DNA of 64,000 nucleotides from Pomacea canaliculata (lineage: Eukaryota; Mollusca; Gastropoda; Architaenioglossa; Ampullariidae), in NCBI RefSeq assembly GCF_003073045.1, contig NC_037600.1, positions 14,713,188-14,777,187 on the forward strand, in the 5' to 3' direction. Within the stretch, counting starts at the first letter, position 1; each line of letters opens with the position of its first letter. The position numbers were made by a program, and so were the translations under genes. Shown in pieces: positions 13,092-27,300 of this stretch. The notes below the pieces were generated by a model. That model was given only the letters and a program-made list of their open reading frames with translations. It had not been told where the DNA came from and did not search any database.

Positions 13092-13097
13092 TTTATT
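13092..13097 (-). terminator. polyA signal of the Cys-rich repeat gene
   Basis: AATAAA on the minus strand lies only about 13 bases after the TAG stop at 13112-13110, implying a very short 3' UTR. Confidence 0.55.
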
Positions 13098-13109: not shown

Positions 13110-13978
13110 CTAAACCTTTGGATCAAAAACCTGAAAGAAAACTCCTCGGCATCTGATAGGCTCCTCCTGGCCGTTGCTTACAGTGTAGTACTCGAGTCGA
13201 CATGCGTTGCCACACCCACGAATTCTGTTGACGAATGGTGGAAACAAATTATTGTTAGTAATCACCAGTTCTACTAATTATTGTTATACGATAGTTCTTA
13301 TGATACAAACATATTAAGGTTAGGATTAAGACTAGTCTGATCACGACCATCTCAAACTAATTGTTAACATTGTAATGTCGTATTCCATCTTCTTTCGTAT
13401 TTTTTGCTAGAAAATTCTTCATTTTATTTGCAAAAGCAAAACCCACAAAAAACAAAAACAAACTGGGCAAAGGTGCTGCTTCAACATGCACTTTAACTGA
13501 TTAGATGGACTTGCGAGGCTGATAGAGCTCTGATAAAGTAATACTTGTTTCGTAACAGTGCATCTGTGTGTGCCTGCATGCGACAAAAAGAGAGGGAAAT
13601 AGCGAGGTGACTGATCAAATGAAAGACAAATTGCAGGTTTCCGTGCCTCGCAAATATTGAAACTAGCGATCGTAGTCAGATCCTTTGTCTCATTTTTTAC
13701 CCTCGCCCCACCATCCCCCGCGTGTGTTAATATATTTGGGTGACCGAGAAGATGTGTGTGTGTGTGTGCGAGATAGAGAAAGAGAGAGAGAGACTTTTTA
13801 TGAGATTGACAATTTAGGAATGAGATGTGAACAAACTGGAAAGATGATAATGCAGGTAAAGATGATAATGCATCGGATACCTTCACCCGATGATTTCATA
13901 CGGCTCACCTGCACGAAGCAGCTGACTGGGATGGACACCTGTCACACCTGCAGGTGGGTTCCTGGCCACCAGGACACT
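13110..13978 (-). other. Cys module 5 (exons 11-12)
   Basis: Exon 11 encodes CPGGQEPTCRCDRCPSQSAA then SCR; exon 12 encodes IRGCGNACRLEYYTVSNGQ then EEPIRC and a short C-terminal tail (GVFFQVFDPKV) before TAG. The module is the most divergent of the set in its second half. Confidence 0.82.
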
Positions 13979-16900
13979 CTGCAATTAATTAAAGTGAGAA
14001 GTCACAATGCGTATTCAGGAAAGTAACTATCGCACGCGAGCGGGTATACCACAAACACGCACCCCACGATGAAAATTTTTTTTTCTAGAAAGTTTTTTGA
14101 CGTGTCGATCAATACTCCAATATATATGCATGCAGACAGGTATGTATACGTGCTGGGGGAGGTGTTTACCATCAACTGAACGAGCAGGTAAGCATTGGTG
14201 CGTGACTCTTTGTCCTCCGACCAACCATTCCGCCCGGCACGCGCCACACGTCATAACTCTGCAACAAATAAACATCAACATTAAAAATAATGATATACAT
14301 CGATACCAGAATATTAGTAATGAATTTCCTCTATTCTTTTTTAAAAATCAACGATGATATTCAAAGAAGTGCCTTCCGCTGATAGGTCTTTACGTGCTGC
14401 CAGGCACCGACGTATGAAGATGGTATGACCTTCTGTACCTACATGCCTCGTGGAGATAATAACATTGCAGGCTAGTTTATGATCCTGAAATTGTTCTCCC
14501 TTTTTTTCAGACCGAATTATTCTTCCTTTTACGGTCAATATAAAAGTTTGCGTAACTGGAGCTGTGTAACGGATATCAACTAAACCGCTAAGAGAGGGGA
14601 AAATGATGTCAATATTAAAGGAAAATGCGTTACACGTATGCAGTTGAAGAAATAATAATAATAACAATAACAAAAAATTTGTATAGCGCATACTCACACT
14701 CTTAGCACTTCAAAACAAGAACGAGACGTGAGCAACATACGAGGGACAGAAGAACAAACAACAGATAAACAGTACCGGTGATGAATAAAAACAAATACAG
14801 AAAAAGCAAAGATGACAGAGTCCCACTAGTCCCATAATACCTGCACACAGCCTCTGGAAATGCCTCGCAAGACTGAATAGCGCAGGGGTTGATGGGACAT
14901 CTGGCAGTCATCATTCTTAAGGAACAGGCTGCAACACAAAACAACTAGAAATTGAAAGTTTCTACTTCGAAAAGTTTACGTAACTGAACCTTTGTCAGGA
15001 ATATTAATTAACCCTCTACACGAGAAGATAAAAGACCTCAATATTAAAGGCAAATTCTGTCACCAAAAAGATTGGTTGGTTGGTTTCGATTAAGCGAAAG
15101 ATATAAAAGGCAGTTTATAATCATTAACGATCACTGTAGGTGAGCCACGTTTACTTTGGCAAGTCATTGTGGACTGAGAATAAAAAAAAAGAAATTTGAG
15201 ATAGTGAGAATTTCTGTTTAAAGAAGCAGGAATAACGAGACATTAAAAAGTATAATACTGCACCTTGTTGGCACTGAACAATGTTGTCTCCTATGTACCA
15301 TTCTGCGTGACAGCTGCCACAGGTGCCAGCTCTGGAATCAGTATCAAGACATCTTTATTTATTTGTGTGTGTGTGTGTGTGTTTTCTGCAAACTATGCAT
15401 TATGCGTTGTTTAAAATTCAGTCTAGAAACGGAATCTCGAGCGACGACGATTGATGATTGAAAGTGGACGTTATGGATGAAGAAATTAATTACATGTACG
15501 TAGTTGTGTTGACATTTTTAATAAGTACCTGCACCAGATGAAGGAGCTACGTTTCCGCCACGTACCTGCATTGAGCGCCAGCTACGTCACATGTTTGTCC
15601 TGCGCAGGGGTCCACTGCACATGTCACTCGTCTCACACCCGCGCCGCAGGTTGTAGCTGCTGCAACGTGCGACAAACAGGTTGTGACCTCGTGTGACATT
15701 GATTATCAGCCCCAAAGTGTGCTAACCACGTGCACGGGTTTTGTTAACGAGATGCTTAAAGAAAGAAAATAACTCGAAGACATTTAATTAACAAAGGTTA
15801 AAGGTAAGGATCCACAATGACAACATAACGATCTTAAACAAGCACAATTCTATCTGACAAAATCAACAATCAGTAAATACACAATGATTAAATGTTGTAT
15901 AAAATATATGTGCTACATTTTTTTAAATAAATGTGTTTCCTTCTTTATTAATTTTCAGTGAAATTAGCAAATGAGAAAATACGGTTATGAATCTACACAA
16001 CTGGGAAAAAGCGTACTCCGATATCCAAATTTAAAAATCAAACCAATGTTGAGGGATCAAAGGGAGAAAATCGAACAAGAAAATGTCATTCCTGAGTCAT
16101 CTTTCCCTGCTTTCCTTGTTGCAGCCTATGTACCCTCCGTCCGCATCCCCACCCATTCCCATTATATCCATCGTCAGTATGACAGGGGAGGATAATACTA
16201 GCTTATCGACGCATTGGAAATGCTGTGAAAATATTGAATTACGAATATCATACCAGAAAAAGTATCACATGCTGATGTAAGTACGATATAATAAGAAAAA
16301 ATTTAAAAATTTCGTTGTTTCCGAAATACTGCATCGTAAATTATCTCTAGACTGAAGTTATCTTGACTCCAACCTGATGTAACTGGAGGCGAAGTGCTGG
16401 TCAGGCTGATGTTGGAATTCGCGTTTGTCACCGGAAGTGACGTTTGCCGCACGCTGGAGCTTGCAGGTGTTGGTGTAGTGAAATTTGTTGTGCGAGGTGA
16501 TGCCTCCTGGCCGCCGCTGGAAGTAGGAGACGCCAGCGTGGTGACATTCTGCTGAGGCTGCTGAAGGTCCTTCTGTCCTGCTTCCGGCTGCTCCACGACG
16601 GAAGCGGAAGCAGGAATCTCGAATGTGCCTCTGGCCTGTACTTCCCCCGAGACTGACTGAAGCGTACCGCCCTGGAGGAATCTGTTTCGAGAAAGGAATC
16701 GTCTTGTGGGAACTCTTGTAGGGGTAGTTGTTTCAAGTGAAGATCCTTCAAGGCTGCCATTTGGCGTGGCTGGCGTCACAACGAACGGTATAGTGGTAAG
16801 TCGGTTGGGTGACTCCGTGGTAACGTTTGTGACGTCATGACCGAGGGGCATGCTGCAGTTTACACGGCGCTCATCCAGAAAAAACTCCGCGTAGCATCCA

Positions 16901-17056
16901 CCGCAGTAATTTGGTCTTTAAACAAACAAAAAGAAGACAAAAATGAAAAGAAAAAAAAAAGAAAAGAGCCGCGAATGTTGATAATTTATTTGATAGGAAA
17001 TTTTTTGTGTTGCTTTTTCTGTAAGGAGAAGCGTGGGTGTAGAAGAAAACAGGAAT

Positions 17057-17104
<48 letters not shown>

Positions 17105-19689
17105 TCACTTTATAGTCCTAATTTTCAAGCTCGTGATGTTTTTTTTAAAAAAAGTACTGAAATGAAGCTGCAAATGCTTTAAACACCACTGTTCCAATTA
17201 TAAATGGATTACACAGGTGCGAATCATATTTACTGCTCTAATGTAGTCTGCAGAATGTCTCTTTAAAAAAAGTAATGGGTTCACAAACCAAACCATAAAA
17301 AGGAAAGCAGTGCATCTCCACCAATATAATACTTTCGACACAAGTGCGACTTGTCATGATCCTTCGTGCATTGCGGATCCATTTGCGTACGTATCATTAT
17401 TGCTTTGGTCTAGTGCTTTATGAAGCTCCAGACCTTTACCAACCGATGCCTGCGCCATGTTCTGGGAATAAGATGGCCTGAAAAGATCTCGAACAGCAGC
17501 CTGTGGAAAAGAACTAACCCTAACCCTATAGCCAAGACATCAAAAAGCGCAAATGGGGCTGGGTAGGACAAACCCTTCGCAAACCAGCTGACACCATTGC
17601 CAGGCAGGCACTTGACTGGAATCCTCAGGGGAAGAGGAGAGTTGGGAGACCAAAGCAGACTTGGAAAAGAACAGTAGAGAGCGAGGAACCACAAGGGCTC
17701 AACTGCCTAAAACCCAAGACCTGTCACAATATTTTACTCCAATATCATCTAAGTACTCATCTTACCTACAGGCGGCAGCAGGAAACCTTTGACAGGAAGT
17801 GACGTCACATGGATTCACAAGACACTGCACGCGGCTTACTCCAGGAGGACACTCGCCATTGGGCTGAGGGGCTGGCGTGGGCGACGTGTTGTTTCCTGCA
17901 CATCAGCTTCATTATTTACATTATGTTTACATAATACGGAATAAAAACATGTTGTCAAGCTAATATCAGATATTGAAAGCAATATGTGTGTTTCACGTAC
18001 GTATGTAAAGTAGTCAACTCAAATATGACTATTTTGTGTGTGTGTGTCTGAGAGAGAGAGAGAGAGGGAGAGAGAGAGAGAAATAATTTTTGGGGTGTAT
18101 AATATAGAGCAAATAGTGTTTGCCAGTGAGGGCAGTTGTCCAGTATGTGGCAGCCATCATAAAGTCTAATTCCTAATGTAACATAATTTGGCAAACAAAC
18201 GAATCCTCTAACCCTGAAACTAATCAAGGTCTGACGAACAGTCAACACTTACGCTGCTCCGTTGGCTCGCATGAGACCCGTTGGCCATTTTCAAACCACG
18301 CCTTCTCGCACCCGCAACCTACTTGCACGTGCCTTGGAACAAACAAAAACAACATTTTGTTTTAAAAAGTATAAATTATAATCCCGAAAGCTGTCTTTGA
18401 TGTGCGTTCCACTTAAACGACAAAGATGCCTTCCCCCACCGACCTACCCACTCCCGCGAATTTTATTTACAAGCTACCGAAAACAAGCTTACAAAACCCA
18501 GAATGATCAGCTAGCATGCTCTTGTTTTGGTCTGATGCTTGAACTGTCAAAACACTGCTATAATCATCTGTAGAAAATTATACCACGAAAGACAGACTTC
18601 TGTTTATTTTCTTTCCCAACTTTCTTTTCCCTTTAAGCATGAATTAAACAAACTAAAGACAGAAATACAAAACCCATATATATCCAAACTGACTGAGCAG
18701 TGATAATAAAATATCCAATGGTAGAGACCACGATGAAATGCAAAGCTAAGTCAATAAATTTTGACAAGCAAACATAAAAGGTTAAAAATTTCAAATAGGA
18801 CGTGCAGCACAGTGGTCTTCGTGAAATATCTAAGGATGTGAGAAGGGCTTGAGGACTACCTGCACTGTGCGTGAGGTCTGTGAGGACAGGGCAGACATGG
18901 CAACCAGCAAGAAATGCGGTCTCCGATGTTACAGTCTGTAACGGAAAACACGACAGGTTTTTTTTAACGTCCTAACATAATGACAAACCGTTATGCGAGC
19001 GTATGCTTATTATAGAGATCAGTCCTTGTGGTAGCTGAAGGAAACGAGCTTCTTAATGAAGAAAATACATCTTTATCTTATTACATTTAACCTTGTATAG
19101 CTCTCTCTCTCACACACACACACAGTGGTACTGAAACTCCTAGAATAAAACGGAACTCACCTAAGAAAAAGTTTTGTGCCTGTGCAGCCTGCTGTACAAC
19201 TGAAAAATCAACAGATCATTATAATATGTATTTTTGGTTACTCTCTCTCTCTTCTCTCTTCTCTCTTCTCTCTTCTCTCTCCTCTCTCTCTCTCTGTGTG
19301 AGAGAGAGAAAACAACCATAAAATTTATTGCTTTTCGCGACTTTAGAAAAACTCGCTATGTGCTCGGGGCTGAAGGTACATCTTAACCGGGACCAAAAAG
19401 CCGACAAACTTCAACAAAGTTGAGTAGACTTTTTGTATATGGCTGTCATTTAAAAACTTTTCCAAGATTTGTCATATTTCTCCATTTATATTTGTCCTGT
19501 TAAAAATGGTCTTAAGCTGCTATTATAAATACATACCGAGTTACTCTAAAGTAGCTTTATCTCTGGTGTACAAGACTAAGACTAGTGGCATTTATTGCCA
19601 TGATGATGATGATGATGCTCACCTGAAAGGAAGATAACAAGGAGAGAGCACTTCACCAAAAGAGAAGTTTTTGGCTGGGAACGTTCCAT
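13110..19689 (-). CDS. secreted protein with five repeats of a two-exon Cys-rich module and a mucin-like linker (485 aa)
   Basis: Coding exons (minus): 19689-19623, 19199-19161, 18935-18860, 18332-18253, 17895-17766, 16915-16374, 15659-15566, 15331-15264, 14928-14841, 14258-14170, 13978-13909, 13224-13110. All phases agree over 1458 bases. The product starts with a signal peptide (hydrophobic LLVKCSLLVIFLSVVQQAAQ; cleavage likely near AQA). Five modules follow the pattern C-x5-8-C-x3-PC-x4-C-x7-CR then CG-x-C-x-AE-W/F-x-V-x-C. A Ser/Thr/Pro-rich stretch (about residues 153-311) with several N-glycosylation sites separates modules 2 and 3. No membrane anchor is seen. The function is unknown; it is presumably extracellular. 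I cannot match it to a named domain family. Confidence 0.88.
14170..14928 (-). other. Cys module 4 (exons 9-10)
   Basis: Exon 9 encodes CSLRMMTARCPINPCAIQSC and EAVCR; exon 10 encodes VMTCGACRAEWLVGGQRV then HQC and a short spacer ending at GTAAAC. The intron between them (14259-14840) carries a retroposon tail. Confidence 0.85.
14651..14740 (-). mobile_element. retroposon 3' tail in intron 9 of the Cys-rich gene
   Basis: Read on the minus strand, GTATGCGCTATACAAAT is followed by a (TTA/TTG)n tail at about 14651-14672. This type of ending (a CGCTATA motif then a trinucleotide run) is common to invertebrate LINE/SINE 3' ends. The 5' extent is unclear. Confidence 0.45.
15264..15659 (-). other. 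Cys module 3 (exons 7-8)
   Basis: Exon 7 encodes CGAGVRRVTCAVDPCAGQTC and AQCR; exon 8 encodes AGTCGSCHAEWYIGDNIVQC. The same phase-1 / phase-2 / phase-1 border pattern applies. Confidence 0.85.
16374..16849 (-). other. Ser/Thr/Pro-rich mucin-like linker (rest of exon 6)
   Basis: About 158 residues dominated by Thr, Ser and Pro (for example TTTPTRVPT, TSSGGQEASPRTTNFTTPTP) with N-x-S/T sites NVT, NGS, NVT, NFT and NIS. It contains no cysteine. It is likely heavily O-glycosylated and acts as a stalk between modules 2 and 3. The exon end at 16374 uses CAG|GTTGGA, a weak donor, chosen because it alone joins in frame to module 3. Confidence 0.75.
17056..17102. repeat. (CAA)n microsatellite
   Basis: About 15 perfect CAA/AAC units. 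It lies in intron 5 of the Cys-rich gene, close to the LINE fragment. It makes a false poly-Leu frame on the minus strand. Confidence 0.95.
17400..17710 (+). mobile_element. LINE fragment, C-terminal end of reverse transcriptase ORF
   Basis: In two overlapping frames, plus strand: KLQTFTNRCLRHVLGIRWP, then KKRKWGWVGQTLRKPADTIA, ALDWNPQGKRRVGRPKQTWK. The sequence 'LDWNP-x-G-KRR-x-GRPK-x-TW' is the typical tail of non-LTR endonuclease/reverse transcriptase polyproteins. The fragment is old, with at least one frame break, and lies in intron 5 of the Cys-rich gene. Confidence 0.8.
18045..18082. repeat. (GA)n microsatellite
   Basis: A GTGTGTG run followed by a near-perfect GA repeat, in intron 4 of the Cys-rich gene. 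Confidence 0.9.
18253..18935 (-). other. Cys module 1 (exons 3-4)
   Basis: Exon 3 (18935-18860) encodes CNIGDRISCWLPCLPC through HAQCR; exon 4 (18332-18253) encodes HVQVGCGCEKAWFENGQRVSC. The split falls right after Cys-Arg in phase 2. This module has the divergent CGC instead of CG-x-C. Confidence 0.85.
19239..19312. repeat. CT-rich tract, partly tandem TTCTCTC
   Basis: CTCTCTCT then several TTCTCTC units and a GAGAGAGA end, so the ends can pair as a hairpin. It is just upstream of exon 2 of the Cys-rich gene (minus strand). Confidence 0.9.
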
Positions 19690-23917: not shown

Positions 23918-24307
23918 GGGCCAAGCTTGCTGTAAAACTATTGGATATCTTAGTACTTTTTTCCCAGAAAGAGAGAAACGTAAGAAGCCAATTGTAACAT
24001 ATTCAGCAGATATACTTTATTGTATCATTGATATTGTTGTCGCTTGTCTGTATTAAGTCTACAAAATTCATAGAAACTCAAGTACCCACCTTAGTCAAGT
24101 CGTCAATCGTCAAACATAAAGAAATTGTAATATAACATTCATGCGATAATTTCAATAAAATTTTATTATAAACAGGACGTTATTTAAAGCTGTTAATCAA
24201 AATCAGATGTCTTTATTTAGCTTATTGTTCGTGGTCCAAAACAGATAACGGTCTTTTAAAAGAAAGCATTGTTTGGACCTGTTGCAGACGATAAAGAAGG
24301 TGAGAGG

Positions 24308-27300
24308 ATGGCATTCACTTCGCCCAGGAAATTTCTGAGAGCTAAGAGACATCAACCAGAAATTCTAGAAGCAGACAGTCCAAGAGCGAGGGCAGTCACA
24401 TTCAACGACAATGTCGTTGAGACTTCAATTGGAGGCACTCAAACCCATACGAAAGTGAAAGTTGACCCTTTGCTTAAGATTGCCGGTGATAGAAATTTTG
24501 GTGAAACCAAATGTCAGAATCAGAGCCTGTATACTTCCACAAAGACTGTAATTTTAGATACGAAACAGCGCTGTGTTGAGGAACAAGATACAAACGCTGA
24601 AAATAAAGAAAATGTTCAGGAAATGAATGTTGCAGAAAAATCAAAACAAACTTCAGAGACAGGTAATGATGTTTCATCGCACTCTTCCAAACTCCAGATA
24701 AAAGAAAATGGATCATTCACTGCACTTTCTTTACTTCCCAAATCACCAAAACTTTGCTCCACAAAGACAGAGAATGTCCGAAGGGCCACACAAGACTGCT
24801 TGGATGAGTTACAGAATGGCAGTTATTCCACCCCTCCAAAGTACTTGCGGCGCCATACTTTGGAATCAAAACTGTTTGAGACACCAGACTGCTACAAGGT
24901 GGTACATATTGAAACTCCCAAATCTCTTCGCTTTGATCAAGGACTTGGTACAGATGATTCTGATTTGTCTGGCATGTATGAGGAAAATGGAGAAGACAGC
25001 TGTAGTGTAACTGTTGCAGTCCGTGTTCGGCCTTACAGTCAGAGGTCAGTAGAAACAAGTAGGTTTGTAATGCATAGTTTTCATTGATGAATTGCTTGAC
25101 AATATTTCATCGTGTAATGTTGAAACAGGAAAAGGTTCTTTGGTGAGTTCATTGTGCCTACTTGAAAGTAGCATTGCTTTTGTGAGTTAATATTATTAGC
25201 TGTCATAATATAATTACTTCATCTTTCATCACTGGCTTGAAGTACTCTTGCACATTTCTAGCATTTAATTTTATTAATAATTTTTAATTTTCAGAGAGTT
25301 AGCAGACCCTAATGTCAAGCGTGTGGTTTCAATGAATGGTAATGAAACGGTTGTAACAACAGAGAGTGGGAATGTCAATCGCTTTGCTTTTGACTTCTCC
25401 TTTTGGTCATTCGACCGTGAAAATGGAGATTTTGCTGATCAGACATCTGTTTATACACATCTGGCAGTTCCACTTTTGGGAAAGGCTTTTGAAGGATACA
25501 ATACTTGTTTGTTTGCCTATGGCCAAACTGGCAGTGGAAAAAGTTACAGGTAAGTGCAGTAGACAGTTGTTGAGTACAAAATTTTCCAAGTAAGTCCAGT
25601 TGTTGGTTAGCAGCAAATACTCAGGCTCTCATGAAATATTTTTTAAGTTCAAAATTAAAACACAGTGTTGATTTTACCCCAATATAAATGGACATGGAAA
25701 ATTTGGAATAGTATTTGTTCCCAGTTTTTGTGAAACAACTACATGATCTTGTTTGCAGTATGATGGGCCATGGGTCTGAAGTTGGAATCATACCAAGGTT
25801 TTGTAAAGAGCTCTTCTGTCGAGCAGCTCGAGCCAGTGACCGAGAAAAAGTAATATACTATGTCTTTTTCTTTCGTCATAGTCTTGAATCGTTCTTGATA
25901 GGTTCTATTTTGATTCTTCTTGGGCTCTTTTTAAAATTCTTTTGTGACATGAGTGAGTTTCTTTCTGTATATAAGTATCATGATTACCCAAGGAGCAGAG
26001 TGTGAATATTTATGAATGTTTCTTCAGCTAATAATCAATTTTTGTCTCTCTAAATGACTATTAGACTATGTTAATAATAAAATGTTTAAGTGGCTTGCAT
26101 GCAACAAAATTCTTCGTGACAGAATAAGTCCCTGTGCTACAGCACTTGCATATTTGTGATTGGCAAGCACATTGATATATTTGAGTTGTGAAAAAAAATC
26201 TTTTAATAAAAATGATTGTGAAAAATGTTTGCAATTAAACTATCACTTTTTGTCTGTTTGTTTACAGGTGAAAATAACTGTGGAGATTAGCTTTTTTGAG
26301 ATCTACAATGAAAAGATTCATGACCTTCTAGCATCTTCCAAAGAAAAGAATGGCAAGAAGACAACAGTAAGCTGCCCAAAAAAGATTTTTTTCCATTGAT
26401 TTATTTATTTCTTCATTTATTTGCATTTGATATTTAGTACTTTGGCAAGTATTTTTTTCAATAAGATCTTTAAGATAACTTTTAGATTTGTATTTTATTT
26501 TCTTAGATGATTTTCATAAGAACATGCTTAATAATGTCTGTTCTCTGAGAATCACAGCACCACTTTATGACAAATAATTCTTACTTCAATTTTTGCAGTT
26601 GAAAGTTCGTGAGCATCCTGTTTTAGGTCCTTATGTTGAAGGTCTTTCAACTTTTGTGGTCAACTCCTTTGAGGATGTTGAGGTAAGAAAACTGATTTTG
26701 AAGACTCCTTGCCCAGAAAGCATATGCACATAGTTATTTTTCCAGATACCAAGTTTTCTGTATCCCTTGATAATTTAACCAAAAAAGTATTGGATTTTCT
26801 TGTTTTAAGGTTAGTGTTTTTGTTGACATTGAAAATTTTCTACAATTGTGATCATTTAGCCTCTACATGCTTAGCATTGTTTACAGTTCTGAAAGGGGAA
26901 CAAAAGGTGTTGTTGGTGTTATAATTGGTGATTATTGATGGTTTAAAGGGATGGATCACCCTTGGCAACAAAAACAGGGCCACAGCAGCCACTGGTATGA
27001 ACGACAAGAGCAGCAGATCACACTCTGTCTTCACCATTCTTCTTACTCAGACACGGGTGAGTGAAATAGCCAGTGCTTTGCTGACTGTTGCCTCTCTTTT
27101 TCTGTCCCGTAAATCCACTCCAATAATCTGTCTTCTAACCCAGATTGATCTGTGCTTGTGCTAGACTGGTTTATTTATGCTTGTGTAATGGATTTCATTT
27201 TCTGGTTTCACTCTGCAAGAAATTATAAATAAAAGAGCGCTTTACACTGTTTTTTGTCTTAGTAACAGGAGCCATCTTAATATTTAAAAAGTACTTTATT

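Follow-up and report, generated by a model that had tools for sequence, protein, structure and literature searches.

What kind of building block makes up a cysteine-rich, multi-module protein encoded in the genome of the gastropod Pomacea canaliculata, and what might such a protein do? The gene in question lies on the minus strand, at 19689..13110, of a window of 64,000 nucleotides (contig NC_037600.1, positions 14,713,188 to 14,777,187; C11:14713188-14777187 in our genome search). Rebuilt from sequence, its 12 exons join in phase across 11 GT..AG introns into 485 residues, and this reconstruction bears out the first-pass annotation of a predicted secreted protein with five modules. The module is widespread but uncatalogued in Pfam-A, and it recurs in open frames of bacterial genomes. 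It probably shares its fold with NvCI, a small protease inhibitor from another gastropod. As a whole, the locus is best explained by a secreted multi-module protein of protease-inhibitor type whose modules have the NvCI fold, a reading to which we give about an even chance.

The protein and its repeated module

The features of the gene were read from the rebuilt exons, together with hydrophobicity for exon 1, composition for the linker, the module profile for all module halves and also the bacterial profile for the second half of module 2. The possible poly(A) signal was read from the sequence. M1 to M5 denote the five modules and Cys1 to Cys8 the cysteines of each.

19623..19689, minus strand: exon 1, start codon and signal-peptide-like stretch MERSQPKTSLLVKCSLLVIFLS, phase-1 exit
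19161..19199, minus strand: exon 2, a short exon of 13 residues, end of the pre-sequence
18860..18935, minus strand: exon 3, module 1 half A (Cys1 to Cys5)
18253..18332, minus strand: exon 4, module 1 half B (Cys6 to Cys8)
17766..17895, minus strand: exon 5, short Pro/Thr linker and module 2 half A
16849..16915, minus strand: exon 6 first part, module 2 half B (CGGC core)
16374..16848, minus strand: rest of exon 6, Thr/Ser/Pro-rich (mucin-like) linker, 158 residues
15566..15659, minus strand: exon 7, module 3 half A
15264..15331, minus strand: exon 8, module 3 half B
14841..14928, minus strand: exon 9, module 4 half A
14170..14258, minus strand: exon 10, module 4 half B
13909..13978, minus strand: exon 11, module 5 half A
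13110..13224, minus strand: exon 12, module 5 half B, 12-residue C-terminal tail past Cys8, stop
13092..13097, minus strand: AATAAA, possible poly(A) signal, starting 13 bases beyond the stop

Each of the five modules holds exactly eight cysteines (40 in all), and one more lies in the signal peptide, where the hydrophobic window reaches up to 3.0. The intron phases in order are 1,1,2,1,2,1,2,1,2,1,2. In five of five modules the Arg codon after Cys5 is interrupted by a phase-2 intron, so the two-exon 1-2-1 cassette split after Cys-Arg, proposed earlier, is seen throughout. The mucin-like linker said to divide the modules 2+3 is likewise present after module 2 (residues 154-311, 42% Thr+Ser+Pro), and the protein carries eight N-glycosylation sequons. 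Both the acceptor of exon 7 and the donor of exon 6 (GTTGGA) have in-phase alternatives, which move the linker edge by 1-2 residues. The exon 6 donor is the single weak splice donor of the model, and could be taken to mean that the exons are unjoined or never transcribed, in other words that the gene model is wrong or the gene dead. We consider this very improbable: the 12 exons read through as a single frame, free of stops and with phases that fit, and the intron position is the same in the tandem and dispersed paralogues examined.

The module can be defined by Cys1 to Cys8, with CxxxPC before Cys4 and CGxC-x3-[FWY] after Cys5. This pattern is complete in M2 (spacings 8,4,4,7,4,2,12), M3 and M4; M1 and M5 have all eight cysteines at altered spacing. 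Shuffled sequences with the cysteines held fixed reached the leave-one-out profile scores of M1 to M5 in 0, 0, 0, 0 and 1 of 2000 cases, which shows that the repeat goes beyond the placing of its cysteines. When the 2899 open pieces from all six frames of the window were scored, a profile recovered exactly the ten half-exons at 9e-5 or better, the next piece standing at 0.67; that profile was built from the five modules and one paralogue, and the recovery is thus not an independent test.

An uncatalogued module with bacterial relatives

The first-pass annotation knew of no named domain with this pattern, which is right for Pfam. No model reached its cut-off in the full protein or in the five modules taken separately, nor in three further snail module pieces and two tandem-paralogue modules. 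VWC and TIL were specifically checked, and neither rose above the Pfam gathering score in the full protein or the separate modules. Kunitz, WAP and other named extracellular domains were rejected in the same way, the modules tested having no Pfam match above cut-off. The snail modules resemble VWC, TIL, Kunitz and WAP in being small, secreted, disulfide-rich and often tandem, but match none of them. Three sub-cut-off Pfam matches were put down to chance cysteine spacing: CCHC_BCL-11A (20 bits versus 27), CPL1-like (16.1 versus 27.4) and E_raikovi_mat (13.8 versus 25). NCBIfam gave solely a spurious match at 0.048 for the three modules scanned. Among the matches listed from open-licence PubMed Central, no title or abstract start describes the module, by which its absence from print is not shown. 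These results define an extracellular domain for which we found no model in Pfam-A.

One scan of a prokaryote genome collection with two short patterns returned 38 matches, and 18 loci encode relatives of the module. Their hosts are Myxococcota and other Deltaproteobacteria, Neomarinimicrobiota, a cyanobacterium (Symploca), a Nitrospirae metagenome-assembled genome and further metagenome-assembled genomes. Animal contamination is unlikely, because the module stands in an open frame at 18 of 18 loci and one of these lies on a 3.67-Mb chromosome. A restriction to lophotrochozoans, which the first-pass annotation would have counted towards novelty, therefore does not hold.

To compare the two groups, we used a profile with no snail row. 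Its 17 bacterial modules come from 16 loci of the 18, L055 and L068 being excluded as near-copies of others. Against the snail protein it gave a full-sequence E of 3.6e-18, with M2 at 3.4e-12, M3 at 1.3e-5 and M4 at 0.85 (Z 500,000); M1 and M5 were not found at that setting. Cysteine-fixed shuffles reached the scores of M1 to M5 in 6, 0, 0, 1 and 143 of 2000 cases. By these counts it is M2 and M3 that carry the link to bacteria, while M4 contributes less, M1 weakly and M5 nothing. Bacterial occurrence is sparse: the module was found in 3 of 140 genomes in one host's phylum (one of them probably by chance) and in 5 of 100 in another, the centre genome being counted in each. That probable chance match, in G028 (E 6e-4), is a short frame with a stop. 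Among viruses, a tblastn search of phages yielded four records, none better than E 1; 86 stretches of viral contigs matched a pattern and none was confirmed; and Foldseek matches to viral models went no lower than E 2.8.

In 8 of 12 bacterial proteins examined (L054, L057, L060, L061, L062, L064, L065 and L067) a TIMP-like NTR domain directly precedes the module, and these eight begin with Cys-x-Cys after a signal-like stretch. L054 has pacifastin repeats too. The bacterial proteins, from Myxococcota and others, have the same module as the snail protein, but the snail protein has neither the N-TIMP-like NTR domain nor pacifastin repeats: no TIMP or NTR domain with an N-terminal Cys1 was matched by Pfam in its 485 residues. 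Animal TIMP, correspondingly, has the NTR domain in common with the bacterial relatives and not with the snail protein. Bacterial TIMP-like proteins are already in print, one being a Listeria TIMP-like lipoprotein paired with a metzincin (PMC8235301). Through the connection between the snail protein and bacterial TIMP-like proteins, it becomes testable whether the module arose by vertical descent or by transfer, and how it acts on proteases.

The position behind an N-TIMP-like domain suggests one further reading, in which the module, standing in bacteria where the TIMP C-terminal domain would be, is a minimal relative of that domain. Profile alignments continue past the NTR domain and take in the first TIMP C-domain cysteines, Pfam matches to TIMP in L064 and L067 extend into the module, and TIMP has a C-x3-P-C stretch there. 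Counter to this, the alignments end after the third cysteine, the VIA ranges stop at model residue 147 or earlier, the module part of the model is poor, and the disulfide pattern of the TIMP C-domain differs from that predicted for the module. We regard this kinship as improbable.

Resemblance to NvCI and possible function

The nearest solved structure is NvCI of Nerita versicolor (PDB 4a94, 5mrv). It is a picomolar gastropod metallocarboxypeptidase inhibitor of one domain, in which six cysteines form three disulfides and the last of them is followed by a free C-terminal tail of two residues (PMC6780499, PMC9966942, PMC5511257). This short tail is the active site, and inhibition proceeds through the free C-terminus. 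NvCI ranked first in Foldseek (E 0.29) and first with a ten-module profile (E 0.093), and sequence similarity to it appeared in another search at E 3.4, all of these values being sub-threshold. None of 2000 cysteine-fixed shuffles scored as high as NvCI. Searches of the PDB with phmmer, using M2 and M1 as single modules, gave nothing better than E 1.8.

When the module is aligned with NvCI, Cys 9, 15, 23, 38 and 51 of the inhibitor fall on Cys2, Cys4, Cys5, Cys7 and Cys8. Its Cys27 pairs with Cys6 by order only, and Cys1 and Cys3 have no NvCI partner. Transferred from NvCI, the disulfides would be Cys2-Cys5, Cys4-Cys8 and Cys6-Cys7, with Cys1-Cys3 as an extra bond by exclusion; this prediction is tentative, as the ten-module profile alignment to NvCI leaves the first part unaligned. 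The spacings C-x7-C and C-x12-C are common to NvCI and to M1 and M2, an aromatic residue stands four after Cys7 in NvCI and in all five snail modules, and M1 has a GQRVxC-like ending as in NvCI, with near versions in M2 and M4. Both proteins are secreted and from gastropods, and a size of about 50 residues with a short antiparallel beta sheet, predicted for the module, is a further likeness. NvCI, however, forms one domain with six cysteines, whereas the snail protein has five domains of eight cysteines each and a mucin-like linker. The two-residue free tail is also unmatched, since M1 to M4 are internal and the tail of M5 has 12 residues; a paralogue, L013, ends LCYS. Because it departs from NvCI both in cysteine number and in lacking a free tail of two residues, we do not file the snail protein as an NvCI member. 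We would rather describe it as a variant of the NvCI kind with several modules of eight cysteines each, in a family for which our searches turned up no Pfam-A model.

Several observations weigh against this kinship and the function drawn from it. Each line leading to NvCI is sub-threshold alone, NvCI is not picked up by the bacterial profile, and the nearest paralogues gave no match in BLASTP. Moreover, modules 1-4 cannot use the tail mechanism of NvCI, because only module 5 has a free tail. The first three points would be expected if the resemblance were convergent, small disulfide-rich hairpins looking alike, and the module were an unrelated binding domain. We think this rather unlikely: NvCI came first by two different methods with different input rows, cysteine-fixed shuffles never attained its score, both animals are gastropods, and L013 has an NvCI-like ending. 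The missing free tail in the internal modules could also fit a structural role, in which modules cross-link or space a mucin-like extracellular scaffold of mucus, shell, periostracum or egg coat without inhibition. Such a role would suit the long Thr/Ser/Pro linker with its N-glycosylation sequons, as well as the paralogues on contig C6, which stand beside tyrosinase, VWC, EGF and Kunitz open reading frames (ORFs), a mix suiting secreted matrix. Arguing against it, the protease-inhibitor type is represented both by the nearest structure solved and by the domain that most often accompanies the module in bacteria, and there are apparently single-module secreted paralogues without scaffold architecture. 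On balance we find a purely structural role doubtful.

The reading that we favor for the snail protein is a secreted protein of protease-inhibitor type, which may act by inhibition. Mucus, shell matrix, defence and ligand binding had been listed as possible uses, and NvCI together with the TIMP-like domain in 8 of 12 bacterial proteins appears to narrow this list to the protease-inhibitor type. The protein may be a multi-headed extracellular inhibitor, or a protease-binding protein, of the body surface, mucus or fluid. The mucin-like linker would hold the inhibitor heads extended, and modules 1-4 would bind by a surface other than that corresponding to the C-terminal tail of NvCI.

A broader scenario, which we put forward tentatively and with less than even confidence, is that this one uncatalogued module of bacteria and animals is an old metalloprotease-inhibitor part, fused to TIMP-like domains in bacteria, multiplied to five heads in snails and trimmed to NvCI by loss of the Cys1-Cys3 disulfide. 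If so, NvCI would be a branch of a large family and not an isolated fold. The module family is in any case a possible home for NvCI, for whose fragment of 43 residues Pfam gave no match. Among the matches listed from open-licence PubMed Central, neither titles nor abstract starts tie NvCI to a wider family, though its absence from print is not thereby shown.

Paralogues and a dispersed repeat in the snail genome

Searching the genome (440,159,624 bases, 24 contigs) with module 2 yielded nine places, three of them in the window gene. The other six comprise one single-exon copy on contig C6, two in a tandem group on contig C11 (L013 and L014), two on contig C2 and one on contig C7. The NvCI fragment as query found nothing in this genome, and a match at C11:7793573 (E 0.6) was judged noise.

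The tandem genes (C11:12958000-12977999) are apparently single-module and resemble NvCI. An exon search placed a signal-peptide-like exon upstream of L014, which thus looks like a secreted single-module gene; the same search yielded none for L013, which may therefore be incomplete. The sequence of L013 ends ...LCYS, followed by a stop codon. The intron position is common to the copies examined on C11, C2 and C7. Five exon-A halves (one each in L013, L014 and L017, two in L015) end TGCAG ahead of GT, and in L013 and L014 the B half follows TTTCAG. The two modules on contig C6 do not have this intron position, one being intronless and the other apparently split between Cys4 and Cys5. These two modules (L011, L012; C6:4661000-4680999, minus strand) lie among Kunitz (E 5e-17), EGF (9e-9), VWC (1e-10) and tyrosinase (3e-24) ORFs, and from order and strand all may possibly belong to one large secreted multi-domain gene.

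A C2-type query matched 29 places in the genome, 28 of them outside the window, and loci L015-L017, L021-L045 and L085-L087 lie on contigs C2, C3, C4, C5, C6, C7, C9, C11, C12 and C14. When five dispersed loci were compared with 21, the matches listed included common stretches of 0.5-2.2 kb beyond the exons, most of them about 80-94% identical in DNA, and further pieces close to 70%. Many module copies therefore lie in a dispersed multi-kilobase repeat. In several dispersed copies only exon B was found within 1.5 kb. An ORF family occurs at 27 places (79-residue query), 19 of which are open for 420-574 residues, and it lies 2.1-5.4 kb upstream, on the same strand, of 16 of 21 dispersed B-exon copies; the three copies scanned had no Pfam match. 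The repeat may be a mobile element with a captured module. The window gene is not a copy of it, since only a 29-base match is common to the two (six loci compared).

Elsewhere in the window, a 275-residue open frame (24260-25087, plus strand) has no Pfam match at E 0.1; its end presumably resembles the start of a kinesin motor.

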